Shown: positions 18,573 through 34,398 of the stretch, in pieces
How positions within the stretch are numbered: the stretch's first letter is position 1
Layout: each line of letters begins with the position of its first letter
NCBI GenBank assembly: GCA_019637355.1
Contig: JAHBVT010000001.1
Coordinates: 1,829,192 to 1,893,191, forward strand
Length of the DNA stretch: 64,000 bases
DNA from: Gemmatimonadaceae bacterium
GTDB lineage: Bacteria > Gemmatimonadota > Gemmatimonadetes > Gemmatimonadales > Gemmatimonadaceae
Reading direction: 5' to 3'
Notes under the pieces: generated by a model
The model's input: the letters and a program-made list of their open reading frames with translations, nothing else
Databases searched by the model: none
Told to the model about the DNA's origin: nothing
Made by a program: the position numbers and the translations under genes

Positions 18573-20119
18573 AAGAACACGAGGACCGTCGCGACGACGG
18601 CCGCCGCCACGACCGACGCCCACACGCGGTAGTCGCGCCGCCACGGCGTACCGGGCGCCACCCGCGCGAGGGCCGGCGACCACAGCGTCACGTGGCCGGC
18701 CTCCGGCGTCTCACCGCCGCGCCGGGAGGCGGCCACGAGGGCGACGCTGCTCACGACGGCCAAGAGGAAGGCGTTCACCGTGAAGTGCAGCGGCCAGGCG
18801 CCGACGCGCGTGGCCACGAAGAGGGCGAGGCCCACCGCGTGGCCGGCGAGCAACGCCGGCATCGCCGCCTGGCGCGTCGCGCCGCGCCAGAGCACCCCGC
18901 CGATGAACACCACCGCCACCGGCGGCACCACGTAGGAGAACACCTCCTGCAGGTACGCGAAGATGCCCGGGAAGCGCGCGATCATCGGCGCCCAGGCGAT
19001 CGCGAACACCATAAAGCCCAGCGTCGTCAACCGCGCGACGCGCAGCAGTCGCGCCGGCGGAAGCCCCCGCTCGTGCAGGGCCGCGAGGTCGTACACGACG
19101 ATGGCCGAAGCCGCGTTGAGCGCCGAGTCGATCGTCGACATAATCGCCGCCATCACCGCGGCGATCACCAGGCCGCGCAGGCCCACCGGCAGGAGGTCCC
19201 GCGCCAGCGTCGGGAACACAGCATCGGCGCGCTCGAGGCCGGGCACGATGCCCAGCGCCATCGCACCCGGCAGGACCATAATGAACAGCGGCAGCACCTT
19301 GAGTCCCGCCGCCAACACCGCACCCCAGCGCGCGTGGTCCACCGAGCGCGCCGCGAGGAAGCGCTGCGTGATGTACTGGTTGGTGGTCCAGTAGTAGAGC
19401 CCGAGCACCGGCAGGCCGAGCAACAGGCCGGGCCACGGCAGGTTGGGGTCGTTGGCGGGGAGCACCAAGTGCAGGTGGTCGTCCGGCACCGCGGCCCGCA
19501 CCGCCGACCACGAGAAGTCATAGTGCCCGAAGGCGGCCCAGGTAATCATCAGCGAGCCGACCAAGAGCACGCCCGCCTGCAGCGCATCGGTGAGCATCAC
19601 CGCCTTGAGGCCGCCGGCGGCCGTGTACAGCCCGGCGAAGAGTCCCAGCGCGATGAGCGTCGGCCACAGCGGCAGCTGCGGCAGGAACACCGTCAGCACC
19701 AGCGCGCCGGCGTAGAGGCTGCCGGCGGTGTCCACCACCACCGAGAGAAAGACCATCACGCCGGCCACGTAGAGGCGGGCGCGGCGTCCGAAGCGCTGCT
19801 CCACGTAGTCCGGCAGCGTCAGGATGCGGGCGCGCAGGTACACCGGCACCAGCACCACGGCGGCGAAGAGCAGCACCAGCGCCGCCATCCATTCGTAGCT
19901 CGCCACCGCGATGCCGGAGGCGTAGGCGGCGCCGGCGAGGCCGATCAGCGTGGTGCTGGAGATGTTGGACGCGAACAGCGAGGTCCCGACGACCCCGAAG
20001 CCGAGCCCGCGTCCAGCAAGAAAGAGCGATTCCGCGTCCTGGGTGCCGCGACCGACTCGCAAGCCAATCCACGCCACCACCACGAGATAGAGGACGGGGA
20101 GCACGAGGTCCCAGTGCAT
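18569..20119 (-). CDS. Sodium:solute symporter (SSS/SGLT family)
   Basis: A 516-residue inner-membrane transporter with about 13-14 membrane helices. SSS features include FLAGRGLGFGVVGTSLFASNIS near residue 30 (shown as FLAGRGLGF and SLFASNISS), the GGLKAVMLTDALQAG helix and the sodium-site region IMSTIDSALNAAS. The substrate cannot be read; SGLT-like members carry sugars. ATG at 20119 places the first helix at residue 6, and upstream in-frame codons look untranslated. Tail-to-tail overlap of 4 bases with ggpS makes uptake of an osmolyte or its sugar precursor an attractive but unproven role. Confidence 0.85.
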   Translation of the reverse strand: MHWDLVLPVLYLVVVAWIGLRVGRGTQDAESLFLAGRGLGFGVVGTSLFASNISSTTLIGLAGAAYASGIAVASYEWMAALVLLFAAVVLVPVYLRARILTLPDYVEQRFGRRARLYVAGVMVFLSVVVDTAGSLYAGALVLTVFLPQLPLWPTLIALGLFAGLYTAAGGLKAVMLTDALQAGVLLVGSLMITWAAFGHYDFSWSAVRAAVPDDHLHLVLPANDPNLPWPGLLLGLPVLGLYYWTTNQYITQRFLAARSVDHARWGAVLAAGLKVLPLFIMVLPGAMALGIVPGLERADAVFPTLARDLLPVGLRGLVIAAVMAAIMSTIDSALNAASAIVVYDLAALHERGLPPARLLRVARLTTLGFMVFAIAWAPMIARFPGIFAYLQEVFSYVVPPVAVVFIGGVLWRGATRQAAMPALLAGHAVGLALFVATRVGAWPLHFTVNAFLLAVVSSVALVAASRRGGETPEAGHVTLWSPALARVAPGTPWRRDYRVWASVVAAAVVATVLVFF

Positions 20120-20198
20120 CTCAGTGTCCGGGGTGAGGGGGTAGGCAGAGGGTAACCCCTGACGCGCCTGATAGGAACCCTTTCGCCGAACCTCACCC

Positions 20199-20231
20199 TT
20201 GACCCTAAGCTGTGTCCCCACTTAGGTTTCG
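20199..20231 (+). promoter_or_regulatory. Promoter of the rpsF operon
   Basis: TTGACC (20199-20204), an 18-base spacer and TAGGTTTCG (20223-20231). It predicts a leader of about 90 bases before rpsF, long enough for ribosomal-protein autoregulation. Confidence 0.7.
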
Positions 20232-20326
20232 AGGCTGTCCAATCACATCGCGGGCCCTTCGCCCGCCCCTCCGCCTGTGTCGGCAACCCACGGGTGGCGG
20301 AAACGACCAAAGGGAGGATTGCCACA

Positions 20327-20692
20327 TTGTCTCGTGAATACGAGGCGGTGTACATCTTCGATTCTGCACTCGAAGACACCGCCATTGCCGAAAAGATCGA
20401 GAAGCATCACGGTCTGCTCGGCCTCGCTGCGCCTGCGACCCTCGATCACTGGGGCCGCCGCCAACTCGCCTACAAGATCAAGAACAAGGAAGCCGGCTAC
20501 TACGTCGTCGCCCGCTTCTCCGCCGAGGGCAAGGTCCTGCCCGAGTTCGAGCGCGCGCTCAAGCTCGACGAAGGCGTGATCCGCTATCTCATTTCGGTGC
20601 ACGAGCACGAGCTCGGCGCCCCGCCGATGACCGAAGAACAGCTCGCCGCGCGCCGGGAGCGCGATGGCGACGATGACGACGACGAGGAATAG
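20327..20692 (+). CDS. rpsF: Small ribosomal subunit protein bS6
   Basis: bS6 forms a heterodimer with bS18 on the 30S platform. The start is TTG at 20327, because AGGGAGG at 20311-20317 sits 9 bases upstream and the protein then opens SREYEAVYIFDSAL, as bS6 should; an upstream GTG at 20294 would bury the ribosome-binding site in the gene. The 121 residues include HWGRRQLAYKIKNKEAGYYV and a C-terminal acidic tail of Asp and Glu. Confidence 0.95.
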   Translation: MSREYEAVYIFDSALEDTAIAEKIEKHHGLLGLAAPATLDHWGRRQLAYKIKNKEAGYYVVARFSAEGKVLPEFERALKLDEGVIRYLISVHEHELGAPPMTEEQLAARRERDGDDDDDEE

Positions 20693-20695
20693 CCA

Positions 20696-20923
20696 ATGCG
20701 CCGCAATCGTAAGGTCTGCCCGGTCACCGAGGCCGGCATTCGCTTCATCGACTACAAGGACGAGCGCTTCCTCTCCCGCTTCGTGACGGACACCGGGAAG
20801 ATCCTCCCGAGCCGCCTCAGCGGAGTGGACGCCCGTCACCAGCGCCAGCTGGCCAAGGCCATCAAGAAGGCCCGCTACCTGGCCCTGTTGCCGTACTCGC
20901 GCAGCCAGTCGGCGCAGCAGTAA
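20696..20923 (+). CDS. rpsR: Small ribosomal subunit protein bS18
   Basis: 75 residues, with the typical [19 protein letters not shown], then [23 protein letters not shown] and a short tail. It starts 3 bases after rpsF. A lone Cys8 (KVCPVT) is what remains of the zinc-site region seen in C+ paralogues. No ssb gene separates bS6 and bS18 here, unlike in many Proteobacteria and Firmicutes. Confidence 0.97.
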
Positions 20924-20934
20924 GCCGACCGGCC

Positions 20935-21963
20935 GTGACGCAGGAGGAGGGCGCGGCACCGCCGCGCGAGCAAGGCTGGCGGGGCCCACTCCTCGCCTTC
21001 CTCGCCCTGCTGTTCCTACCGGGAGCGCCGCCGTTCGCGCTGCTGTTGCCGGTGGACCAGATCCTGCTTCTGCTGGCCCCCACGCTCGCCTTGGGCGCGG
21101 TGGTCGGATGGAGACGCGGGGGACGGTTGTCCCTCGCACTCGCCTGGACGGTGTTTGCCGCCTGGGTGCTGTGGGCGCCGGGAGCACAGACGCCGTTCGC
21201 GCTGATGGCGCGGGGGTGGGGCGTGATCCTGGCGGCGAGTTTCGCGGCGGTGCAGACGTTGGAGGTGGACTGGACCTTCCTCCCGCGGGCGCTGACGGCG
21301 ATCCTCGCGGCGCTGGTGCTGGGCACGATGGCGGTCGTGATGACCGATGGCGGCCTGGCGGCGGCGAGTGAGGTGCTGACGGAGGAGTTCGCGCGACGTG
21401 GCGAGGAGATGCTCGCCGCCTGGCGCGAGTTCACCTCGCAGCCGCAGTGGCAGGAGCTGGTGAAGGAAAACGCCAGTGCCGACCAACTCGCGCTGCAGGT
21501 GGAGCGGCAGTTCACCGCGCTTCCCCCGGTGGCAGTGCGGTTGGCCCCGGCGCTGCTGGCGCTGGAGTCGTTGATGGTCCTCGCGCTGGGATGGGCGCTG
21601 TACCATCGCTTTGGACGGGTGCGGCTGGGACCGCCGCTCGCCGCCCTGCGGGACCTGCGGTTTCACGACGCCTTCGTCTGGGGGCTGATTGGGGGGCTGC
21701 TGGTGCTGGTGGTCCCGATGCCGGCGGCCGTCACGGCGCTCGGCCTCAACGCGCTCGTGTTCTTCAGTGCCTTGTTCGCGCTTCGCGGGCTCGGCGTGAT
21801 GGTGTGGTTCTTGGCTCCAGGCCGATGGATGGCCATCGTCTGGTCCCTCGTGTTGGTGATGTTCTGGAGTGTCATCGCAGCGGTCGCCCTCGTCATCGGC
21901 GTGGGAGACATCTGGCTCGACTGGCGACGCCGGCCGCGGCCGCAATCCCAACGTTCGGAGTAG
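20935..21963 (+). CDS. DUF2232-type multi-pass membrane protein
   Basis: A 342-residue protein with about eight hydrophobic helices and one soluble loop (residues about 150-200, rich in Glu and Gln). Its place between rpsR and rplI matches YybS/DUF2232 proteins, which occupy the same slot in several phyla; the C-terminal helices with VWGLIGGLLVLV fit too. Function is unknown. GTG start, 11 bases after rpsR; rplI begins 2 bases after its stop. Confidence 0.7.
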   Translation: MTQEEGAAPPREQGWRGPLLAFLALLFLPGAPPFALLLPVDQILLLLAPTLALGAVVGWRRGGRLSLALAWTVFAAWVLWAPGAQTPFALMARGWGVILAASFAAVQTLEVDWTFLPRALTAILAALVLGTMAVVMTDGGLAAASEVLTEEFARRGEEMLAAWREFTSQPQWQELVKENASADQLALQVERQFTALPPVAVRLAPALLALESLMVLALGWALYHRFGRVRLGPPLAALRDLRFHDAFVWGLIGGLLVLVVPMPAAVTALGLNALVFFSALFALRGLGVMVWFLAPGRWMAIVWSLVLVMFWSVIAAVALVIGVGDIWLDWRRRPRPQSQRSE

Positions 21964-21965
21964 AT

Positions 21966-22412
21966 ATGGAAGTCATTCTTCGTCAGGCGGTGGACAACCT
22001 CGGGCATCCCGGGGACATCGTCGAAGTCTCGTCCGGCTACGCCCGCAACTTCCTGTTGCCGCGTGGCATCGCCTACGAGGCGACCGCCGGCAACAAGAAG
22101 CGCATCGCCCAGGAGAAGGAGCGCCTGGAGGCGGCCGAGAACGCCCGCCGCGACGCGGCCTCGGCCATCGCCAAGCGCCTCGAGGAAGTCTCGCTCACCT
22201 TCTCTGCCAAGGTCGGCGAGGAAGGCACGCTCTTCGGCTCCGTCACCTCGGCCGACATCCAGCACCAGCTGGAGGCCCAGGGCTTCAAGGAAGTCGAGAA
22301 GCGGATGATCGACCTGCACGAGCCGATCAAGGCGCTCGGCGTCTACAAGGTGGCCATCCGCCTGCACGCCGACGTGAAGCCCGAGATCAAGGTCTGGGTC
22401 ATCAAGGGCTGA
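21966..22412 (+). CDS. rplI: Large ribosomal subunit protein bL9
   Basis: Two-domain 50S protein that limits frameshifting. The 148 residues include the N-terminal MEVILRQAVDNLGHPGDIV and GYARNFLLPRGIAYEAT, a long connecting helix, and a C-terminal domain with GSVTSADIQ. The ribosome-binding GGAG lies in the last codons of the preceding gene. A strong terminator follows, so this is the end of the rpsF operon. Confidence 0.97.
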   Translation: MEVILRQAVDNLGHPGDIVEVSSGYARNFLLPRGIAYEATAGNKKRIAQEKERLEAAENARRDAASAIAKRLEEVSLTFSAKVGEEGTLFGSVTSADIQHQLEAQGFKEVEKRMIDLHEPIKALGVYKVAIRLHADVKPEIKVWVIKG

Positions 22413-22439
22413 GCGCCCGCGCCACACGGCGTCACACGG

Positions 22440-22468
22440 GGGGCGGACCGTTCGCGGTCCGCCCCTTT
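22440..22468 (+). terminator. Intrinsic terminator after rplI
   Basis: An 11-bp GC stem (22440-22450 with 22455-22465) closes a stable TTCG tetraloop and is followed by TTT. Confidence 0.85.
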
Positions 22469-22534
22469 CGCGTGCCGCTGGGCGGCCGGCCGGCCCGCTC
22501 GCCGGACAGCGGGAACCTTTCCTCCGCCCGCGGG

Positions 22535-22566
22535 TTCGCAGACACAATGCCGGTGCTACCTTTCGG
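22535..22566 (+). promoter_or_regulatory. Probable rsfS promoter
   Basis: TTCGCA (22535-22540), a 16-base spacer and TACCTTTCGG (22557-22566). The ATG at 22568 lies 4 bases after the TTT of the -10 box, which would make the rsfS mRNA leaderless. Confidence 0.55.
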
Positions 22567-22567
22567 A

Positions 22568-22927
22568 ATGCCCCCAGCCGCACCCGACACGATGACCGCC
22601 GCCCGCCGCGCCGCCGAGATCCTGCTCGACAACAAGGCCCAGGACGTGGTCCTGCTGGACCTGCGTCCGGTCTCGGATATGACCGACTTCTTCATCGTCG
22701 CCAGCGGCACCTCGGACACCCACGTGCGCGCCACCGCCGGCCACGTCGTGGACACGCTCAAGAAGGAAGGCCTGCGCGTGCACTCGGTCGAGGGCCTCGA
22801 ACAAGGCCGCTGGGTGCTCCTGGACTATGTGGACTTCGTCGTGCACGTCTTCCATCCGACGCTGCGCGCCTTCTACCAGCTCGAACGGCTCTGGGGGGAT
22901 GCCCCGGCCGTGCCCGTCTCCGCCTGA
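22568..22927 (+). CDS. rsfS: Ribosomal silencing factor RsfS
   Basis: Binds uL14 and blocks subunit joining when nutrients are scarce. The 119-residue product carries the family core: NKAQDVVLLDLRPVSDMTDFF, ASGTSDTHVRATAGHVVD and DYVDFVVHVFHPTLRAFYQLE. Three in-frame ATGs exist (22547, 22568, 22592). I prefer 22568 because of its distance from the -10 box; 22592 would give 111 residues and also fits the family. The downstream gene starts 8 bases later. Confidence 0.9.
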   Translation: MPPAAPDTMTAARRAAEILLDNKAQDVVLLDLRPVSDMTDFFIVASGTSDTHVRATAGHVVDTLKKEGLRVHSVEGLEQGRWVLLDYVDFVVHVFHPTLRAFYQLERLWGDAPAVPVSA

Positions 22928-22935
22928 GGCCGACG

Positions 22936-25900
22936 ATGCGTCGCTGGCTCCTCTCCGCCGCCCTGCTGCTCCTCGCCGCTCCCCTGGTGACGCCGGCGCT
23001 CGACTCGCAGGGGATGTACTTCGGCCAGAACCAGGTGCAGTACCGCAAGCTGCGCTGGCAGGTGCTGCGCACGGCGCACTTCGACGTGCACTACTACCCG
23101 GAGCTCGCCGACGTCGCCGAGTACACGGGCCAGATGGCCGAGCGCTCCTACGAGCGCCTGCGCCGCGTGTTCAACCACCAGTTCCGCGAGCGCAAGCCGA
23201 TCATCATCTACGGCTCGCGCAACGAGTTCGCGCAGAACAACGTCATCGGCGATCCGGGCGAAGGCACGCTCGGCGTCACCGATGCGCTGCGCCAGCGGAA
23301 TATGTTCTTCTTCGTCGGCGATATGGGGCAGTCGGAGCACACGCTGACGCACGAGATGGTGCACGTGTTCCAGTTCGACATCTTCGCCCGCGGCCGCGCC
23401 GGCTCGGGCCTGCAGGCGCTGGCGCAGGTGCAGCCCCCGCTGTGGTTCATGGAGGGGATGGCCGAGTACCTCACCAACGGCCCCGGCCACAAGGCCACCG
23501 CCGCGGTGATGCGCGACGCCGCGCTCAACGGCAACATCCCCAGCGTCGAGCAGATGACGCGGCGGCCGGACCTGTTCTTCCCCTATCGCTTCGGCGAGTC
23601 GTTCTGGGAGTACGTGGCCGGCCGCTGGGGCGACGAGATCGTCGGCGAGATTATGAACGCCGCCGTCTCGCTGGGCATCGACCGCGCCTTCCGCCGCTAC
23701 ACCGGCACCGACCTCGAGGACCTCGGCGAGGAGTGGAAGGAAGAGATCCAGCGGAAGTACCTGCCGCAGGTGGCCGAGCTGACGCGCCCGCGGCGCTTCG
23801 CCCAGCCGATGCTCAACCAGCGCCGCACCGGCGGCCTCGTGCCGGTGTACGTCGCGCCCTCACTTTCGCCGGACGGCCGGCAGATCGCCTTCATCTCGCT
23901 GGGCTCGCTGCTGCGCGCCGAGGTCTTCCTCGACCTTTACATCGCCGACGCCAACACCGGCGAGCGCAAGGCGCGGCTCACCAAGAGCACGCTGAACCCG
24001 GAGATGGAGGAGCTGCGCTTCCTCTACTCGCAGGGCGCGTTCTCGCCGGACGGGCGCTACTTCGCGTTCACCGCCCAGCGCAAGGGCAAGGACGTGCTGT
24101 ACATCCACGACGTGCGGCGCAACCGCACGCACCGGCGCATCGAGGCGGCGTCGCTGGTGGCGATGTTCAGCCCGACCTGGTCGCCGGACGGTCGGCGGCT
24201 GGTCTTCAGCGGCCTCGCCAGCGGCACCACCGACCTGTATATGGTCGACGTGGACGGCCGCAACCTGCGCCGGCTGACCGAGGACGTCTACGGCGACCTC
24301 CAGCCGCACTGGTCGCCGGACGGGCGCTACATCGCCTTCGCCAGCGAGCGCGGCCCGCAGTCCGACCTCGGCTCGCTGCGCTTCGGCGAATGGCAGATCA
24401 ACCTGCTGGACCTCGAGAACAACCAGGTGCAGGTGCTGCCGAACCAGGACGGGAAGAACCTCAACCCGCAGTGGTCGCCGGACGGCAAGGCGGTGGCGTT
24501 CATCTCGGACCGCACCGGCATCGCGCAGCTGTTCCTGTATGAGATCGAGTCGCAGCAGCACTACCAGCTCACGAACTTCGTCGGCGGCGTCTCGTCGCTG
24601 ACGGAGCACAGCCCGGCGATCACCTGGGCCCAGCAGGCGGACAAGCTGGCCTTCGTGTACCAGGACAACGGGCAGTTCGCGATCTGGAGCGTGACGGACC
24701 CGCGGGCGCTCAAGCGCGACCCCTTCGTGACGGCGACGACAATCATCGCCGCGGACGCCGATTCGGCGACGCGGGCGCGGCAGGCGCAGGCGGTGGCGGT
24801 CGCGGCGGCGCAGGCCGAAGCCGACAGCATCGCGGCGCGCGCCGCCCGCTCCACGGCGCCGACGCGCCGGCAGTCGGTGTACCTCAGCGCCGGCGGCTGG
24901 CGGCCCGGCAACGCGATGGTCAGCGGCGTCACCGGCGGCGTGTCGATCGCCGCGCTCAACGACTCGGCCGCGCTGGCCCTGCCCGACCCTGAAGGCTTCC
25001 GGAAGGCGCGCTACACCAGCAAGCTGAGCCCCGAGTACGTGGCGCGGCCGCAGGTGGGCTACGCGCAGGACAACTTCGGCCGCGGCGTGTTCGGCGGCAC
25101 CGCCATCGTGCTCGCGGACCTCGTCGGCAACCGACGGCTGATGCTCGCCGGCGGCGTGAACGGCCGCGTGTCCGAGGCGCAGATCTTCGCGATGTACAGC
25201 GACTACAGCGCGCGCACGCAGTGGTCGGCCGCCGCGCAGCAGACGCCGTTCTTCTTCCTCACCGGCTTCAACCAGGAGCAGACGCCGGGTGGCGTGGTGC
25301 AGGAACAGGTCATCGCGCGCTTCATCGCCCGCTCGGTGATGGCCAACGCCTCGTACCCGCTCAACCGCTTCACGCGCTTCGAGTACGGCGCGCAGTTCAA
25401 CAACATCGACCGCTCCCTGATGTACGTGCGGTCGTTCTTCGACCCCTTCTCGGGCTTCTCCAGCGGCTTCGTCATCGACCGCATCGAGAACGCGCCGTCG
25501 CTCAACTACGTCGCGCCCTACGTGGCCTTCGTCTCCGACAACGCGCTGATGGGTGCCACCGGCGGCATCTACGGCCGGCGCTGGCGCTTCCAGGTGGAAC
25601 AGACGCAGGGCACGGTGAAGTGGACCACCTACTCGGCCGACTATCGCCGCTACGACGCCCTGCTCTTCAACTACCTCACCTTCGCGACGCGCTTCGCCGC
25701 CAACGTGAGCGTGGGCCCGGACGAAGAAGAGTTCCCCAAGTTCATCGGCCGGCCGGACTTCCTGCGCGGCTACGACCGCGAGCAGTTCGCGGGCAACGTC
25801 TGCGAGACCTCGGCCTCAGACCCCAGCGAGTGCGGCGCCGTGCAGTTGCTCGGCAGCCGCGTGTTCTACACCAACGCCGAGCTGCGCTTCCCGCTGGTGC

Positions 25901-26181
25901 GCCAGTTCACGCTCGGGCTGCTGCCGGTGTCCCTGCCGCCGGTGGACGGCTTGTTCTTCTTCGATATGGGCGCCTCCTGGTCGGCCGACCAGCGCCTGCA
26001 CCCCAGGCGCCCGGACGACTACGACTTCACGCGGCAGCGCTACCCGCTCAAGAGCTACGGCTTCGGCATCCGGCTGAACCTCTTCAACATCGCACTCATC
26101 CGCTGGGACTACTCGGTGCCCCTCGACGGCCCCAACCGCGGCAACGGCTACTGGTTCTGGACGCTGGGGCAGTCGTTCTGA
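22936..26181 (+). CDS. Peptidase-MA / beta-propeller / outer-membrane barrel fusion
   Basis: A 1081-residue exported protein with a signal peptide ending near residue 22. Residues 35-280 form a gluzincin-type peptidase: THEMVHVFQFD gives His139, Glu140 and His143, and MEGMAEYL supplies the third zinc ligand near residue 173. Residues about 290-600 are a TolB-like propeller with repeated SPDGRxxAF blades. Residues about 690-1081 are beta-rich and end WFWTLGQSF, with a terminal Phe typical of outer-membrane barrels. The combination suggests a surface or periplasmic protease tethered by its own barrel. The substrate is unknown. Confidence 0.8.
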   Translation: MRRWLLSAALLLLAAPLVTPALDSQGMYFGQNQVQYRKLRWQVLRTAHFDVHYYPELADVAEYTGQMAERSYERLRRVFNHQFRERKPIIIYGSRNEFAQNNVIGDPGEGTLGVTDALRQRNMFFFVGDMGQSEHTLTHEMVHVFQFDIFARGRAGSGLQALAQVQPPLWFMEGMAEYLTNGPGHKATAAVMRDAALNGNIPSVEQMTRRPDLFFPYRFGESFWEYVAGRWGDEIVGEIMNAAVSLGIDRAFRRYTGTDLEDLGEEWKEEIQRKYLPQVAELTRPRRFAQPMLNQRRTGGLVPVYVAPSLSPDGRQIAFISLGSLLRAEVFLDLYIADANTGERKARLTKSTLNPEMEELRFLYSQGAFSPDGRYFAFTAQRKGKDVLYIHDVRRNRTHRRIEAASLVAMFSPTWSPDGRRLVFSGLASGTTDLYMVDVDGRNLRRLTEDVYGDLQPHWSPDGRYIAFASERGPQSDLGSLRFGEWQINLLDLENNQVQVLPNQDGKNLNPQWSPDGKAVAFISDRTGIAQLFLYEIESQQHYQLTNFVGGVSSLTEHSPAITWAQQADKLAFVYQDNGQFAIWSVTDPRALKRDPFVTATTIIAADADSATRARQAQAVAVAAAQAEADSIAARAARSTAPTRRQSVYLSAGGWRPGNAMVSGVTGGVSIAALNDSAALALPDPEGFRKARYTSKLSPEYVARPQVGYAQDNFGRGVFGGTAIVLADLVGNRRLMLAGGVNGRVSEAQIFAMYSDYSARTQWSAAAQQTPFFFLTGFNQEQTPGGVVQEQVIARFIARSVMANASYPLNRFTRFEYGAQFNNIDRSLMYVRSFFDPFSGFSSGFVIDRIENAPSLNYVAPYVAFVSDNALMGATGGIYGRRWRFQVEQTQGTVKWTTYSADYRRYDALLFNYLTFATRFAANVSVGPDEEEFPKFIGRPDFLRGYDREQFAGNVCETSASDPSECGAVQLLGSRVFYTNAELRFPLVRQFTLGLLPVSLPPVDGLFFFDMGASWSADQRLHPRRPDDYDFTRQRYPLKSYGFGIRLNLFNIALIRWDYSVPLDGPNRGNGYWFWTLGQSF

Positions 26182-26195
26182 GCGCCGCCGCCGAC

Positions 26196-26204
26196 TAGCT
26201 TTCG
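26196..26204 (+). promoter_or_regulatory. -10 box of the SPOR lipoprotein gene
   Basis: TAGCTTTCG, identical to the box ahead of prs, with the GTG start codon 5 bases after its TTT, predicting a leaderless transcript. No good -35 is visible at the right distance. Confidence 0.5.
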
Positions 26205-26207
26205 CGT

Positions 26208-27722
26208 GTGACCACGCGCTCCCGATTCCTGCTGCTCTGCACGGCCGCCGCCACGATCGCCTGTGGTGACGGCCGTGTGTCGTCCGGCGGCTCGTTTTCG
26301 TCCACCGGCCTCGACGCCGTGCTGCTCCGCGTCCCCCGCAGCGGCGGCATCGCCCGCGCACATCGCGTCGGCAGCGACAGCGTGCTCTTCTCCGCACGCG
26401 ACCGCGCGCCGGCGCTCGACGGCATCCTCGACTTCGACGACTTCCTCGGCGTCGTGCTGCTGCGCGACGCCAACAGCCGCATCCTGAACCTCGACCTGCG
26501 CCTCGGCACGGTCACGATCCCCGGCGAGGAGCGCCTGCGCGGCACCGTCGTGGCCGAGGGCGCCGCCGCCTACGGACTCGACGCGCAGGGCCGCATCATC
26601 CGCGTGACGCCGTCGGTCACCTGGACCTGGCCGGTGCCCGGCGGCGCGACGTCGCTGGTCCCCACGCCCGACGGCTCGCTGATCGTGCTGCGCACCGATG
26701 GGGATGGTACCGAGTGGCGCCGCGTCATCCCGCCGGAGACGCGCGTGCTCGACTCCGCCCGCACCGCCCCGGTGCGGCTCGTCGAGCGCACACAGGCCGG
26801 CGACCGCGTCTGGGCCGTCACCAACGGCACGCTCATCTCGCTGCGCACCCGCGATCTCGGCCAGGCCTTTGAGATGTCCCTGCGCGACTCGGTCGTGGCA
26901 CTGGCGCTCACGCCCAGCGGCGACCGCGTGTTCCTCGCTACCGACCAGCGCCGGCTGCGCGTCGTGGACCGCTACGCCGAGTCCGAGCGCAGCGCCATCG
27001 ACCTGCCCGCACCCGTCAGCGCCCTGCGGATGGATCCCGACGGCCACTACCTGCTCGCCAAGGCGGCGAAGTCGGATTCAGTCTTCGTCATCTCGATCGG
27101 TACCTCGCGCGTGGTCAGCACCATCGCCAGCGCCTGGCGCGACGACCTGCCCTTCGTCACGCCCGCCGGCCGCATCCTCGTGGCCCGCGATCGCGACGTG
27201 GTGCTGGTGGACGCCGAGTCCTCGCGCGATCGTCAACGCTACGCTGGCGGCGCAGCCGACCAGTGGACGCTGGTGCGCTGGAACGGCTTCCGGCCGCGCG
27301 CCGTGGGCCTCGACCGGCCGGTGGAGTTCGAGGAGTACGCGCAGGACTCCGCCCGCGCCGACAGCGCCTTGGCGGCGATGATCCGCGGGCGCTACGGCGA
27401 CATCACCGACATCGCGCGCGCGGCACCGCTGCCCGCGCAGTCGGCACCGACGCCAGCACAGCCCCAGCGCCCCGCTGCGGCGGGCGCCACCGGCCGCGGC
27501 ACCTGGAACGTGTCCTTCGCCACGCTGCTCACCGCCGAGCGCGCCCAGGCCCTCGCCGACAGCATCATCGTGGACGGCCGCCGCGCCCGCGTGGTGCCCG
27601 GCCAGCGCGACGGCGTGCCCGTCTGGCGCGTGCTCCTCGGCCCCTTCGACACACGCCAGGCCGCCGAGCGCGCGGGGATGGCCTCGCGCCTCTCGTACTG
27701 GGTCTTCGAGGGCGCGCCGTGA
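26208..27722 (+). CDS. Lipoprotein with beta-propeller and SPOR domain
   Basis: 504 residues. The N-terminus (FLLLCTAAATIACGDG) carries a lipobox with Cys19. The body is beta-strand rich with repeating units such as SLVPTPDGSLIVLRTD and ALTPSGDRVFLATD, typical of a WD40/YVTN-like propeller. The last 75 residues (TWNVSFATLLTAERAQALAD onward, ending GPFDTRQAAERA and YWVFEGAP) form a SPOR domain, which binds denuded peptidoglycan at division sites. It overlaps the next SPOR gene by 4 bases (GTGA). A role at the septum is inferred from the SPOR domain. Confidence 0.8.
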   Translation: MTTRSRFLLLCTAAATIACGDGRVSSGGSFSSTGLDAVLLRVPRSGGIARAHRVGSDSVLFSARDRAPALDGILDFDDFLGVVLLRDANSRILNLDLRLGTVTIPGEERLRGTVVAEGAAAYGLDAQGRIIRVTPSVTWTWPVPGGATSLVPTPDGSLIVLRTDGDGTEWRRVIPPETRVLDSARTAPVRLVERTQAGDRVWAVTNGTLISLRTRDLGQAFEMSLRDSVVALALTPSGDRVFLATDQRRLRVVDRYAESERSAIDLPAPVSALRMDPDGHYLLAKAAKSDSVFVISIGTSRVVSTIASAWRDDLPFVTPAGRILVARDRDVVLVDAESSRDRQRYAGGAADQWTLVRWNGFRPRAVGLDRPVEFEEYAQDSARADSALAAMIRGRYGDITDIARAAPLPAQSAPTPAQPQRPAAAGATGRGTWNVSFATLLTAERAQALADSIIVDGRRARVVPGQRDGVPVWRVLLGPFDTRQAAERAGMASRLSYWVFEGAP

Positions 27723-29041
27723 CGCCAAGCCCCGTTCCGTCCGCGGTCTGGACGGAGGAGGGGCGGCGCACGGCTCCCGCACTGGCCGACATCGCCGCAG
27801 CGCTGGTCATCGGCAGGGACCCCGAGGCGGCAGCCGCCGTCGCGCTGGGCATTGCCGCTGGCTGCGCCCACGAACGCCGTGTGGCCGTCGCCGACCTCGT
27901 GGGTGGCCTCCCCGCCCTGACGCCACTCGACGACCAGCCCGGCCTCCTCGAGTGCCTCCGCGACGGTGAACCCGTCTCGGGCATCGGGCAGCCCTGGGGC
28001 GAGGTGGAGGGCGTGTACCTGCTCCCTTCCGGCCGCGGCCCCATCGCCGAGCGCTGGGTGTTCGAGAGCGCCCGCTGGGAGCGACTCGTGGCCGGCTTCC
28101 GCGAGGTGGACGCGCTGCTCCTGCTCGTGGCGCCCGCGGCCGCGCCGGGGCTCTCCGAGCTGGTGGAGCGGGTGGACGGCGTCATCGCCGTGGACCTGCC
28201 GCCAGCCGAGGTCCGGGCCTGGCCGATTATTGCGACGGTGGACCACCCCGAGCCGGAGCTGCCGCCGATCGCGGTGACGCCGCGGCCCGGTGCGCAGGCG
28301 GCCGTGCCGGGCGCGCGGAACGGCGGACGCCGAGGCGGACGCCGCATTGGGCGCTGGGTCGTGGGTGGGCTGGCCCTCGTGATCGCGGCGACTGTCGCGT
28401 GGATGCGGGGGCCGGGCGCGTCTGGCACCGCCGGCGACGCGTCCGGCGACGCGGCGGTGGCCGAAGACTCGCTCGCGGGAGCCGCCGCCCCCGCAACCCC
28501 GCCCTCCGCCCCCGCCGCCCGCGAAGTGCGCCTCGGCCCGCCCGTCAACCCCGGCGACTCAGTTTCCGCTCGAAGATGGAGCGTCGAACTCGTAGCGGCG
28601 AATACCCCTGAGGGTGCAAATTCCCGACTGGTCTGGGAGGGCGATCCGCTGCCCGTGCCGACCATCGCGCCGGTGGTCCTGCGCGCGGGGTCGGCACCGT
28701 GGTACCGGGTGGTGGTGGGAGCGTGGGAATCCCGCGCCGACGCCGAGCGCTGGCTGCAGACGCAGCGCGCGCTCGGACTGATTCGCCCCGCGATGGGCCG
28801 CGTGCTGGAGACGCCGTTCGCGTTGCAGCTGGCAGCAGGGCCGCTGGACGAGGTCGAGACACGCAGGGCCGAATGGACAGGTGGGGAGGTACAGCCGTAC
28901 CTCCTCCGGCAGGACGACGGACACGCCCGCGTGTTGGTGGGCGCCTTTGAGACGGCGAGCCAGGCGCTCTGGTTTGCCGCGACGTTGCGGGAACGCGGCC
29001 TCGAGCCGCAGCTCGCGTATCGAACCGGGAGAACGTTCTAA
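27719..29041 (+). CDS. Membrane-anchored SPOR-domain protein with degenerate ATPase-like N-terminus
   Basis: 440 residues. The N-terminal 190 look like an exopolysaccharide-type or ParA-like fold without a P-loop (VALGIAAGCAHERRVAVADL, then LLLLVAPAAAPGLSELVERV). A single membrane helix follows (VVGGLALVIAATVAWM, near residue 210), then an Ala/Pro-rich linker, and two SPOR-like repeats (WYRVVVGAWESRADAERWLQ near 325 and ARVLVGAFETASQALWFAAT near 410). This layout places the SPOR repeats in the periplasm. It is the middle gene between the SPOR lipoprotein and smc, whose start follows its stop without a gap. Confidence 0.75.
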   Translation: MTPSPVPSAVWTEEGRRTAPALADIAAALVIGRDPEAAAAVALGIAAGCAHERRVAVADLVGGLPALTPLDDQPGLLECLRDGEPVSGIGQPWGEVEGVYLLPSGRGPIAERWVFESARWERLVAGFREVDALLLLVAPAAAPGLSELVERVDGVIAVDLPPAEVRAWPIIATVDHPEPELPPIAVTPRPGAQAAVPGARNGGRRGGRRIGRWVVGGLALVIAATVAWMRGPGASGTAGDASGDAAVAEDSLAGAAAPATPPSAPAAREVRLGPPVNPGDSVSARRWSVELVAANTPEGANSRLVWEGDPLPVPTIAPVVLRAGSAPWYRVVVGAWESRADAERWLQTQRALGLIRPAMGRVLETPFALQLAAGPLDEVETRRAEWTGGEVQPYLLRQDDGHARVLVGAFETASQALWFAATLRERGLEPQLAYRTGRTF

Positions 29042-32000
29042 GTGCGGTTGACCAAGCTCGAGTTGCACGGCTTCAAGTCGTTTGCGGATCCGGTGTACCT
29101 GACCTTCGAGGCAGGTGCCACGGCCATCGTCGGCCCCAATGGCTGCGGCAAGTCCAACGTGTCCGATGCCGTGCGCTGGGTGCTCGGCGAGCAGCGCGCC
29201 CGCCTGCTCCGCGGCGGCAAGATGGAAGACGTGATCTTCCAGGGCTCCTCCGCCCGCCGCGCCACCAACGTCGCCGAGGTCTCGTTGCACTTCGAGAACT
29301 CCGACGGGATGCTGCCGGTGCCGTTCCAGGAAGTCGTCATCACGCGGCGCCTCTCGCGCAGCGGCGAGAGCGAGTACTTCTTGAACCGCGCGCCCTGCCG
29401 CCTGCGCGACATCCACGACCTCGTGCGCGGCACCGGACTCGGCGCCGATTCCGGCGTGGTGATCGAGAGCAAGATGATCGACGCCCTGCTCTCCGACCGC
29501 CCCGACGACCGTCGCGAGCTCTTCGAGGAAGCCGCCGGCGTCGGCCTGTACCGCGACCGCCGCCGCACCACCGAACGCCAGCTCGAGGCCACCAGCGCCG
29601 ACCTCATCCGCATCGACGACCTCACGTCCGAGGTGCAGACGCAGGTGCGCTCGCTGCTGCGCCAGCGCAACAAGGCGGAGAAGCACGCCGGCATCAGCAC
29701 GCGCCGCTTTGCGGTGGAGCTCACGCTGGCCTCGCGCGAGATGGCCTCGTGGCAGCAGGAACTCACCGACCTCGACGCCCGCCTCGGCGGTCTGCGCGAG
29801 GCCCTGCCTGCACGCCAGCAGGCCGTGCGCGACGCCGAAGTCGCCCGCGACCTCGCCCAGGCGGCCCGCGCCGCCGCCGAGACCGCGCGCCACGAGCGCG
29901 CCGCCGTCGCCGCGCAGGCGCGGCAGTCGGTGCTCGAGCTGCAGCAGGAACTCGCCGTCGCCGAAGAACGCCACCGCAACGCGCTCACGCGCCGCGAACG
30001 CGCGTTGCAGGAACGCTCCGAGGGCGCAGCCTTCGGCGATCGCCTGCAGGCCGAGTCCGAGGCCGCGCAGGCCGAGGAAGCGCAGTGCGCGCAGTCGCTG
30101 CACGATGCGCTCGAACTGCTCCGCACCAAGGTCACCGCCGAAGAAGAAGCCCGCGGTGCCGTCGCCACCGCGCGGCAGCACACCGACGCGGCCGACAAGG
30201 TCACGCGCGAGCTGCGCGATGCCGCCCGCCGCCTGGAACTCGAACGCGAGAACGCCGAGCGCGAACTTGCCGACGTGGCCCAGCGCTCCGCCGCGCTGGT
30301 GGCCGAGCACGAGGCGCTGTCGTCGCGGTTGAGCTTGGCCGAACGCGAACTCGCCGGCGCCGACGAACAACTGACGATGGCCCGCGAGGCCGCCGCGCAG
30401 GCCGAGGCCGCGCTGGAGCAGTCGCGCGCCGCCGCCCGTGAGGCCCGCGACCGCGAAGCCGCCGCCCGCGCCGACGTGCGTCGCGTCGAAGAAGAACACA
30501 CCGCCCTGCAGGGCCGCCTCGCCGCGCTCGAAGGCCTCGAGCGCGAGCGCGTGGGCCTCGCACCGGCCGCCGCCAAGCTGCTGCGCGAGCGCGAGCGCTT
30601 CGGCAACGATGCCGTGCTCGGTCCGCTCTCGGACTTCATCGGCGCCGATGCGGCCGTGGCCGCGCAGATCGAGCGCTATCTGGGCCCCACCGTACACGCC
30701 GTCGTCGTGCGCGACCGCGCGGCCGCCGACGCCGTGCGCGCCTGGCACGCCGAGCAGAACCCCGGCGCGCTGCTGCTCCTGCCGCTCGACGCCCTGCAGT
30801 CCGGCGGCGAGGGCAGCGACCCCAGCGAACTCGCCGCGCGCGTGCGCGCCGAAGGCGCCGGTGGCAACTGGGTGCGCGCCCTGCTCGGCAAGGTGCGCGC
30901 CACCGCCGACGGCAATGGCTTCATTGACTCGCGTGGCGCCGTCTGGCTGCCCGCGCGAGACGCCGGCAGCGCCGGGCCGCTCACGCGCCGCGCCGAACTC
31001 GAAGAACTCCGTGCCTCCCTGGCCACGGTGGACGCCCGCCGCGCCGAGGTGCAGCAGCGCGCACAGGCCGTGCACGACGACGTGGTCCAGGCCGAAGCCG
31101 CCGCCGCGCACGCCGCCGATGCCGCAGCCGCCGCGCAGCAGTCGCTGGCGCAGGCCTCACAGCTGCGCTCCGAGCGCGACCGCGTGCGTGAGCGCGCCGC
31201 CCGCGAACTCGCCGATGCCGTCGCGCTGCAGGAGCGCCTCGCCGGCCGCCACACCGAACTCGGCGACCGCGTCAACGCGTCGTTGGCCAGCCAGGACGAG
31301 ATCGTCCAGAAGCTCGTGGACGCCGACGAGGCCGCTAGCTCAGCTCGTGGCCTGCTCGGCACCGCCGAGCGTGCGCAGGACGAAGCCCGCGAAGCCCGCG
31401 CCGCGCAGCAGGTGGCGCACGCGCAGGCCGAGGCGCGCCGTCAGGTGGCCACCGAACGCCGCGAGCGCCTTGAGCGCGAGCGTGCCGCCGCGGCTGACCG
31501 CCTCGTGGCGCTGGAGCGTGAGATGCAGGCGCTGGCCGAGCAGGACGGGCAGCTCGAGCAGCAGATGGGCGTGTGGCAGCAGGAGCTCGAGGCGCGTCGT
31601 GCGTCGCAGGTGGAGGCCGACCAGGCCCTCGCCGGCGCCGAGCAGGCCGTGCGCGAGACGGAATCGGAGTTGCAGGCCGCCGTCGCCGCGCTCGACGCCG
31701 CGCGCGTGGACGCCGCCGGCGCCAACGACACGCTGCACGCCGCCGAGCTGCGCCACACCGAGCTCGCCGGCAAGCGCACCGCCATCCGCGAGCGCCTCGA
31801 AGCCGAGTGGCGTCGCCCGCTCGACGAGCTCTTCGCCACCTACGAGCCCGTCGAAGCCGACGACGACGCCCTGCGCATCGAGGCCGAGGACCTGCGCAAG
31901 CAGCTCGAGACCCTCGGCCCGGTGAACCCGCTGGCTATCGAGGAGCACGAGGAGGAGACCAAGCGCCTCGAGTTCCTCACCACGCAGCGCGCCGACCTCG

Positions 32001-32566
32001 TGGAGGCCCAGCAGAAGCTGACGCAGGCGATCAAGGAGATCGACGTCACGGCGCGGGACTTGTTCCTCGCGACCTTCGCGCAGGTGCGGGCGCACTTCCG
32101 CGAAATCTTTATGACGCTCTTCGGCGGCGGCGAGTGCGACCTGCGCTTGGAAGATCCGGAGCGGCCGCTGGACTGCGACATCGAGATCCACGCCAGCCCG
32201 CGCGGCAAGCGCACCCAGCGCATCCACCTGCTCTCGAGCGGGGAACGCGCGTTGGTGGCGCTGTCTTTGTTGTTCGGCATCTTCCTGACGAAGCCCAGCC
32301 CCTTCTGCTTGCTGGACGAAGTGGACGCGCCGCTGGACGACCAGAACATCGGGCGCTTCGTGCGGATGCTGAACGAGTTCAAGAAGAAGACGCAGTTCAT
32401 CGTGATCACGCACAATCCGCGCACGACGACCGAGGCGGCCGATGCCGTCTACGGCGTGACGATGCAGGAGCCCGGTGTGTCGTCGCTGGTCTCCGTGCGG
32501 ATGCGCGGCGGGCCGGCGGTGGACGCGACCGAGGCGGAACCGGCGGGCGCCGCGAGCCCCGCGTAA
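29042..32566 (+). CDS. smc: Chromosome segregation protein SMC
   Basis: The condensin core ATPase. At 1174 residues the length is normal. Walker A is GPNGCGKSN (residues 33-41); two Ala/Glu/Arg-rich coiled coils flank a hinge (about 500-660, with [19 protein letters not shown]). The C-terminal head has the signature [11 protein letters not shown] near residue 1064 (Ser replaces the second Gly of LSGGE) and Walker [14 protein letters not shown]. The GTG start lies directly after the SPOR gene stop, linking segregation and division genes in one unit. Confidence 0.97.
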
Positions 32567-33804: not shown

Positions 33805-34398
33805 ATGACCGAGCGTAAGGACATTTGGGTGAAGGTGTTCAAGCTCGGCGACCCCGAGGCGGATATGCCGCCGCGTGGCCGCAATCACGACGAGCGCCTG
33901 CGGATGGTCCGCGAGCTCAGCGCGATGGGCTACCGCTGCGAGCTGAGCCCCGACTTTCGCGATATCGTCGCCGCGTTCCTGGACGAGGACGTGCAGTTCT
34001 TGCTCGTCGGCGCGCACGCACTCGCCATTCACGGCGTGCCGCGCGCCACCGGGGACCTCGACCTCTTCGTGGCGCGCACCGACGAGAACGCCACACGCGT
34101 CTGGCGTGCACTCGTCAAGTTCGGCGCACCGCTGGAGGCGCTCAAGATCGAGCGGGGTGACCTGCTCAAGTCGCACGCCGTGTTCCAGATCGGCCAGCCA
34201 CCAAACCGCATTGATGTGATGACCGGCATCAGCGGCGTGGAGTTCGACGAAGCCTGGGCGCAGCGCGTCGTCGGCAACTTCGAAGGCCGCGAAGTCGGCT
34301 TCCTCTCCCGCGAGCACCTCATCAAGAACAAGTCGTCCACCGGACGGAACAAGGACCGCGGCGATCTGGATATGCTCGGCCCGCCGCTCGAAGACTGA
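33805..34398 (+). CDS. Nucleotidyltransferase-like protein (DUF6036-type)
   Basis: 197 residues. The core LLVGAHALAIHGVPRATGDLDLFV (parts near residues 71-94) has the GAxAL and DxD pattern of a Pol-beta-type nucleotidyltransferase, as in AbiEii/MenT-like toxins. The C-terminal LSREHLIKNKSSTGRNKDRGDLD is the K/R-rich region typical of this family. It could be the toxin half of a toxin-antitoxin module, but no antitoxin gene is adjacent. A TAAATTA box ends 4 bases before the ATG, so the mRNA may be leaderless. It sits alone after the family C repeat. Confidence 0.75.
   Translation: MTERKDIWVKVFKLGDPEADMPPRGRNHDERLRMVRELSAMGYRCELSPDFRDIVAAFLDEDVQFLLVGAHALAIHGVPRATGDLDLFVARTDENATRVWRALVKFGAPLEALKIERGDLLKSHAVFQIGQPPNRIDVMTGISGVEFDEAWAQRVVGNFEGREVGFLSREHLIKNKSSTGRNKDRGDLDMLGPPLED

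Follow-up and report, generated by a model that had tools for sequence, protein, structure and literature searches.

In 2014, Heinz and Lithgow named WD40-Omp85 as one of ten Omp85 subfamilies and compared it with TolB and BamB (PMC4104836); the sections of that paper devoted to it place a TolB-like propeller N-terminal to an Omp85 barrel, one of the architectures there without POTRA domains, and define another subfamily, 'Metallo', by the Pfam entry PF00149. The term 'WD40-Omp85' was found in a single paper of the open-licence library searched, and the parts of PMC11116518 that list Omp85 subfamilies with enzyme or propeller domains present them, the patatin type aside, as poorly characterised. 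In PlpD, the patatin-Omp85 protein treated in that paper, the patatin domain was found exclusively in the periplasm (PMC11116518, in its account of PlpD). Proteolysis at the outer membrane is represented by BepA, described in the relevant passages as a zinc protease acting on stalled proteins at the β-barrel assembly machinery (BAM) (PMC13067283) and as an M48 zinc peptidase at BAM (PMC8423444). Here we analysed a gene in a stretch of 64,000 nucleotides from a Gemmatimonadaceae bacterium (GCA_019637355.1, contig JAHBVT010000001.1, positions 1,829,192 to 1,893,191; the whole stretch is called the window), whose product joins a zinc-peptidase fold, a TolB-like propeller and an outer-membrane barrel in one chain. 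The reading we favour, with chances that we put at about even, is that this protein does housekeeping work as a zinc endopeptidase of the periplasm, held at the outer membrane by an Omp85 barrel of its own, and probably trims or removes envelope proteins. With it, the enzymes attached to Omp85 barrels would come to include a peptidase, and whether the barrel serves as an anchor or a working gate becomes a testable question.

The gene (22936..26181, + strand) is an intact open frame for a single chain of 1081 amino acids plus stop, and full-length relatives exist. The domain order is a signal peptide, a zinc peptidase of the gluzincin type, a six-bladed TolB-like propeller, a linker and a C-terminal Omp85-type barrel. 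The putative Sec-type signal peptide, recognised by eye, covers about residues 1-25 (22936..23010, +) and holds no Cys; residues 1-26 have a mean identity of 32% among relatives and a low predicted local distance difference test (pLDDT) score in AlphaFold2. The full-chain AlphaFold2 model, built from the 78 sequences of alignment A1, reached a pLDDT of 85.9 and a predicted template modelling score of 0.84, with pLDDT below 50 limited to residues 1-26, parts of 602-666, and 953-965. A Pfam scan of the chain returned five PD40 stretches (E 6.2e-31) and peptidase matches under threshold, and an NCBIfam scan returned TolB under its cut-off and a weak BamA match at residues 804-1048 (E 0.0012). In a sequence search against solved structures, TolB-type propellers ranked best; a BFVD fold search held no whole-chain match among its best 50 matches. 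Together with the structural matches given below, the intact frame and the model upheld the three-part architecture proposed by an earlier sequence-only reading. Mis-joined frames were ruled out by full-length relatives in many genomes, and since these span several phyla, the fusion is not a chance one.

The window protein shares the WD40-Omp85 architecture, with a propeller before an Omp85 barrel and no POTRA; against the 'unusual' of the sequence-only reading, a propeller-Omp85 fusion had already been named in 2014 (PMC4104836). The difference from that subfamily as described lies in the zinc-peptidase domain, as the passages on it describe only the propeller and do not mention a peptidase (PMC4104836). 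According to the same passages, subfamilies other than BamA, TamA and Lipo are conserved at the genus level or spread by transfer, whereas the window gene spans whole sampled phyla. BamA, TamA and other POTRA-bearing Omp85 proteins differ from the window protein, which has no POTRA match before its barrel. We take PF00149 to be the metallophosphoesterase family, so the 'Metallo' subfamily is a different thing. BepA has neither a propeller nor a barrel of its own, and its peptidase family is not that of the window protein. The two are alike in that BepA is a zinc peptidase that works in the periplasm, on proteins of the outer membrane, as stated in part of PMC13067283. PlpD likewise carries an enzyme domain N-terminal to an Omp85 barrel, with the enzyme in the periplasm, but is a lipase rather than a peptidase, has one POTRA and, in the account given in PMC11116518, is described without a propeller.

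The zinc-peptidase domain, assigned to the gluzincins (clan MA type) by profile and fold matches, spans residues 27-285 (23014..23790, +). HEMVH, the predicted zinc-binding and catalytic motif, occupies residues 139-143 (23350..23364, +) in a model helix of residues 130-150, and the presumed third zinc ligand, E173, lies in WFMEGMAEY (residues 170-178; 23443..23469, +) in a helix of residues 169-181. The in-frame HEMVH with a distal glutamate was thus confirmed, and the gluzincin hallmark of an HExxH helix with a downstream Glu on the following helix is present in both model and alignment. As regards the proposed structural check of the zinc site, the fold and the placement of the ligands on two helices held, and the geometry was judged at that level. 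A profile alignment of the domain to Grimontia collagenase (E 0.0018) pairs WFMEGMAEY with WWSEGVAEY; in collagenases and M1 enzymes, the third ligand to zinc is the Glu of this EG. PYRFG (residues 216-220; 23581..23595, +) aligns with YRWG of bacterial collagenase.

Conservation was assessed in A1, which comprises the window protein and 77 relatives; L074, L102 and L111 were dropped as partial, and L061 and L085, both cut by contig ends, were retained there, with A2 made without L085 and A3 without L061. H139, E140, H143, E173 and E177 are identical in 78/78 sequences, as are all nine residues of the W170-Y178 block and Y217 and G220; because A1 was drawn from the best 80 of 132 relatives, these counts hold for the closer part of the family. 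Two Eisenbacteria orthologues outside A1 (L150 and L151) read MEGMCEY and MEGMSEY, keeping the Glu and not the Ala. Mean pairwise identity in A1 was 59% for the peptidase, 52% for the propeller, 42% for the barrel and 32% for the linker; judged from these sequences, the enzyme is the most constrained part of the chain.

Modelled alone, the peptidase domain reached a pLDDT of 88.5. In structural comparison by VIA-align, Grimontia collagenase was the best match (Z 16.9, 233 aligned, root-mean-square deviation (rmsd) 3.6), followed by the M30 enzyme lugdulysin (Z 16.6, rmsd 4.5), Clostridium collagenases (about Z 14-15) and M1 aminopeptidases (about Z 13-14); the collagenase, M30, M1 and M1-like chains among the best 50 matches covered Z 12.6-16.9. 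Collagenases also ranked first in Foldseek (best E 1.4e-4). The domain therefore resembles the bacterial collagenases (M9) and the M30 and M1 gluzincins in its fold, in HExxH plus Glu, and in YR(F/W)G. It differs from collagenases in lying under the cut-off of Pfam M9 (PF01752; 17.8 bits versus 26) and in being joined to a propeller and a barrel in place of other collagenase parts. Among the domain sequences, at E<=0.1, M9 and BSP matched 77/77 and Peptidase_MA_2 matched 44/77; Pfam M48 (PF01435) gave no match in the window domain and matched 4/77 family members at the same threshold.

Four divergent paralogous frames in other phyla (L142-L145) keep HExxH and EG(M/I/L)AE. A protein encoded on Salinibacter ruber plasmid pSR116 (WP_118831798.1; L169:3917-5818), annotated as 'basic secretory protein-like protein', shares 36.9% identity over residues 25-581; it is like the window protein in having peptidase and propeller, with zinc motifs intact, and differs in its length of 633 amino acids and its lack of a barrel. 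Since the zinc ligands are invariant, the peptidase is the most conserved domain, and HExxH plus Glu is also kept in these paralogous frames and in the barrel-less homologue, the domain is expected to be an active enzyme; it is on these grounds that we infer zinc binding and peptidase activity. We regard it as very improbable that the protein is a catalytically dead scaffold in which the peptidase fold survives purely for binding, a view at odds with the invariance of HExxH, E173, Y217 and G220 and with the rank of the peptidase in conservation.

The absence of a barrel in WP_118831798.1 also means that peptidase and propeller can occur by themselves; the barrel may have been added to this module as an anchor or gate. 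A split arrangement in Salinibacter, with the barrel encoded by the next annotated gene, was ruled out, as that gene matches S10 serine carboxypeptidase. Separately, a distant paralogue (L170:833-4429, - strand; a frame of 1199 residues) has HELVH, MEGVAEY, a partial propeller match and the barrel motif LRGYD; an additional 240 or so residues separate its two zinc motifs.

The propeller occupies residues 286-590 (23791..24705, +). The sequence-only reading had counted six or more SPDG blades; only five SPDG motifs are present, at residues 311, 370, 416, 460 and 514, and six blades fit the model and the TolB match, the sixth being degenerate. Residues 286-568 matched TolB 3iax_A with Z 27.0 (242 aligned, rmsd 2.3) in VIA-align. 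The likeness to TolB lies in the six-bladed propeller; the window protein differs in that TolB_N gave no match in the Pfam scan and TIGR02800 (TolB) scored 142.1 bits against a cut-off of 343.15. A variable, mostly low-confidence linker follows (residues 591-685; 24706..24990, +). No POTRA family matched anywhere in the protein in the Pfam scan at E<=1, and peptidase, propeller and linker fill the place of POTRA.

The barrel comprises residues 686-1081 (24991..26178, +) and ends in Phe, as had been read from the sequence. The model has 16 strands, a count that takes residues 698-712 and 846-868 as one strand each, and residues 699-1081 matched BamA 8xnb_A in VIA-align (Z 23.8, 309 aligned, rmsd 4.0), further matches being other BamA chains and Sam50 chains. 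The structure prediction thus spoke for the barrel rather than against it, and a classical autotransporter was ruled out by these matches. A long loop between model strands 11 and 12, loop 6 (residues 927-974; 25714..25857, +; residues 953-965 with pLDDT below 50), carries LRGY at residues 943-946 (25762..25773, +), with R944 present in 75/78, G945 in 78/78 and Y946 in 69/78 sequences of A1. E982 (25879..25881, +), aligned with the Glu of SLEFITP in Salmonella BamA, and D1010 in FFFDMG (25963..25965, +), aligned with the Asp of FFWDMG in the same protein, are both invariant (78/78). The window protein has only two cysteines, C956 and C966, each of them in loop 6; both are kept in 70/78 sequences and neither in the other 8, namely all 7 relatives titled outside Gemmatimonadota and L116. 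The final residue is F in 69 and Y in 8 of the 78, the remaining row, L061, being cut by the contig end. We take the counterparts of E982 and D1010 in BamA to contact the loop-6 Arg, and the cysteine pair resembles the E. coli BamA loop-6 disulfide. A passage of PMC10833450 mentions a disulfide near the loop-6 region of BamA, part of PMC6887485 ranks the VRGF/Y-type loop-6 motif above every other sequence of the Omp85 superfamily in conservation, and the loop-6 motif of Flavobacterium johnsoniae BamA is given as LRGY in a section of PMC12611786. In profile searches, 53/77 barrel sequences matched PF01103 at E<=0.1 (best 1.2e-14), the window's own barrel not being among them, and the barrel profile matched two BamA-type chains (E 5.2e-7 and 0.0047). 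On the evidence of the model and these motifs, the barrel belongs to the Omp85 type, as we read it, a point absent from the sequence-only reading.

These barrel features bear on the possibility, which we hold to be unlikely, that the protein is an assembly factor with an editing protease, in which the barrel inserts or exports clients, the propeller takes a BamB-like part, and passing clients are clipped by the peptidase, so that BamA-, BamB- and BepA-like functions are united in one chain. There is no obvious need in an inert anchor for the loop-6 LRGY, the invariance of E982 and D1010 or the kept cysteine pair, and WD40-Omp85 was called reminiscent of a BamA-BamB fusion in the relevant passage of PMC4104836. 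However, the client-handling part of BamA is POTRA, which the Pfam scan did not match here, and conservation is lower in the barrel than in the peptidase. PlpD, with the same barrel type, is reported in the part of PMC11116518 concerned as periplasmic, dimeric and unlike the Omp85 proteins studied earlier. The genome also holds other Omp85 frames, with six PF01103 matches, five of them over the cut-off and none at this locus. In its strongest form, this possibility would amount to a self-contained outer-membrane assembly-and-editing machine, with a POTRA-less barrel opening for clients, a propeller dock and a zinc editing protease, forming a constitutive biogenesis branch in Gemmatimonadota and at least two further phyla; this we think unlikely. 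One other barrel frame of the genome (L129:223-2181) has IEGY replacing the LRGY-type motif and, by eye, is preceded by a bactofilin-like part.

The family was widespread in the genomes covered. Matches were found in 391/395 sampled Gemmatimonadota genomes (E<=1e-20, with two candidates scored per genome and some of the match rows listed) and in 283/286 among the better assemblies; as only two candidates per genome were scored, the 391 are matches rather than checked full-length proteins. Two of them, G307 and G338, were weak: the profile gave only a propeller stretch in G307 and, in a profile search, nothing at E 1e-30 in G338. Of the four genomes missed, one (G074) showed just a barrel stretch, and the frame in question contains a run of N as well; the profile search returned nothing for the other three. 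Spread outside the named phyla was covered by a genome-contig scan, a plasmid collection and profile searches of two further phyla. The contig scan yielded 132 relatives, of which the best 80 were kept; most were titled Gemmatimonadota or names within it, and 7 of the 80 were titled Latescibacterota, Zixiibacteriota or Eisenbacteria. In profile searches at E 1e-60, 16/16 genomes of the phylum containing Latescibacterota and Zixiibacteriota matched, including the 4 leading there, as did 7/7 of the phylum containing Eisenbacteria, including the 2 leading there, several genomes in both counts matching only in pieces. The survey of the phylum proposed earlier thus found matches in nearly all genomes sampled, and the protein is not unusual in the sense of rare; it represents a conserved family, not an oddity.

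With 16 strands in the barrel, and the LRGY loop joining strands 11 and 12, both barrel ends fall on the periplasmic side, as they do elsewhere among Omp85 proteins. Because Omp85 barrel ends face the periplasm, and because the patatin domain of PlpD is periplasmic in the account of PMC11116518, peptidase and propeller are placed in the periplasm as well. We consider it quite unlikely that the protein is instead a surface protease, in which the barrel would carry peptidase and propeller across the outer membrane to digest or process outside proteins. The best-ranked solved peptidase folds are those of bacterial collagenases, which are secreted enzymes. The patatin domain of PlpD was also formerly thought to be translocated by its barrel, but is periplasmic (PMC11116518, in the same account). 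Moreover, a narrow barrel would have to let through some 560 residues folded as a module, and near-universal retention in the sampled genomes beside ribosomal-protein-like genes is unlike a nutrient enzyme.

For the favoured tethered endopeptidase, we propose that the signal peptide would export the chain, the BamA-like Omp85 barrel would fold into the outer membrane, and propeller and peptidase would hang into the periplasm. The propeller might then dock a substrate or partner, which the gluzincin domain would cleave. As for the client class and the periplasmic side, we infer that the clients are most likely envelope proteins at or near the outer membrane, either misfolded or stalled outer-membrane proteins or precursors for trimming, and by analogy cleavage of propeller-docked envelope proteins near the membrane appears the likeliest activity. 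The protein would thus be BepA-like in effect at BAM and not a BepA homologue. A housekeeping role is suggested by the presence of matches in nearly all sampled genomes of the phylum and by the fixed block formed by ribosomal-protein-like genes, rsfS, the window gene, SPOR genes and an SMC-like gene; near-universal retention, the fixed block and the intact zinc site make the gene a strong candidate for a core gene of outer-membrane upkeep in the phylum. The domain order, the predicted folds, the conservation of the site, the retention and the fixed gene position within the phylum were all obtained by computation. Several points weigh against this reading. Conservation of the loop-6 motif and invariance of barrel residues hint at a barrel that does more than anchor. 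Because the gene has a different setting outside the phylum (rsfS in 0/6 loci), its block may be a trace of ancestry and not of function. Finally, as the genome has six M48 matches, a TolB-like frame and other Omp85 frames, the protein is no simple stand-in for BepA, TolB or BamA.

The neighbourhood was compared by BLAST (1e-5, same strand) in loci with enough flank for each gene, among relatives not titled as other phyla; the names rplI, rpsF, SMC and aroF were assigned by reading the sequences. Upstream lies rsfS (22592..22927, +; Pfam RsfS E 3.5e-31; start provisional), whose stop is followed 8 bases later by the start of the window gene. Downstream are a gene with a C-terminal SPOR domain (26208..27722, +; Pfam SPOR E 7e-7), a second with two SPOR matches (27719..29041, +; start by eye; Pfam SPOR E 5.7e-8 on the longer frame 27263-29038) and an SMC-like gene that ends the conserved block (29042..32566, +; named from reading the sequence). 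In Gemmatimonadota loci, rsfS was found upstream in 65/66, the rplI-like gene in 57/57 and the rpsF-like gene in 53/53, and downstream the first SPOR gene in 45/55, the second in 32/54, the SMC-like gene in 41/41 and the aroF-like gene in 33/35. None of the window's neighbours matched in the seven loci outside the phylum (0/3 to 0/6 by flank), and an NAD-binding oxidoreductase lay directly downstream in 3/4 of those whose neighbours were scanned. In the open-licence library searched, we found no paper on this gene block and no Gemmatimonas envelope proteomics among the papers listed.

The adjoining SPOR-domain genes, which the sequence-only reading had pointed out, are indeed present downstream. 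Along with the Z of 27.0 to TolB, they would suit a division or Tol-Pal factor, whose TolB-like propeller would bind Pal-like lipoproteins and which would do septal work with the SPOR neighbours. We judge this rather improbable: a separate TolB-like frame exists in the genome (spanning positions 41-418 of the TolB model, under the cut-off), and the SPOR genes are not constant companions, the first not being found in 10/55 loci and the second in 22/54, with no match to them in 6/6 and 5/5 loci outside the phylum (BLAST 1e-5, which could overlook a diverged SPOR gene). Both SPOR genes are part of the phylum's gene layout and say little about function.

A scan of 20100-29100 returned no sigma-70-like promoter site, and two terminator-like sites versus 2.6 expected. 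The frame at 26208-27722 is unusual in pairing SPOR with propeller-like matches, which are weak (about residues 224-317); a possible lipobox was also seen by eye. Upstream, 20294-22927 is a conserved block of ribosomal-protein-like genes that encloses a membrane-protein frame (20935-21963, DUF2232 by eye), found in 43/54 loci by BLAST. Further downstream, a frame of 197 amino acids at 33805-34398, nucleotidyltransferase-like by eye (GVPRATGDLDLFV), lies between the aroF-like and ctpA-like genes.

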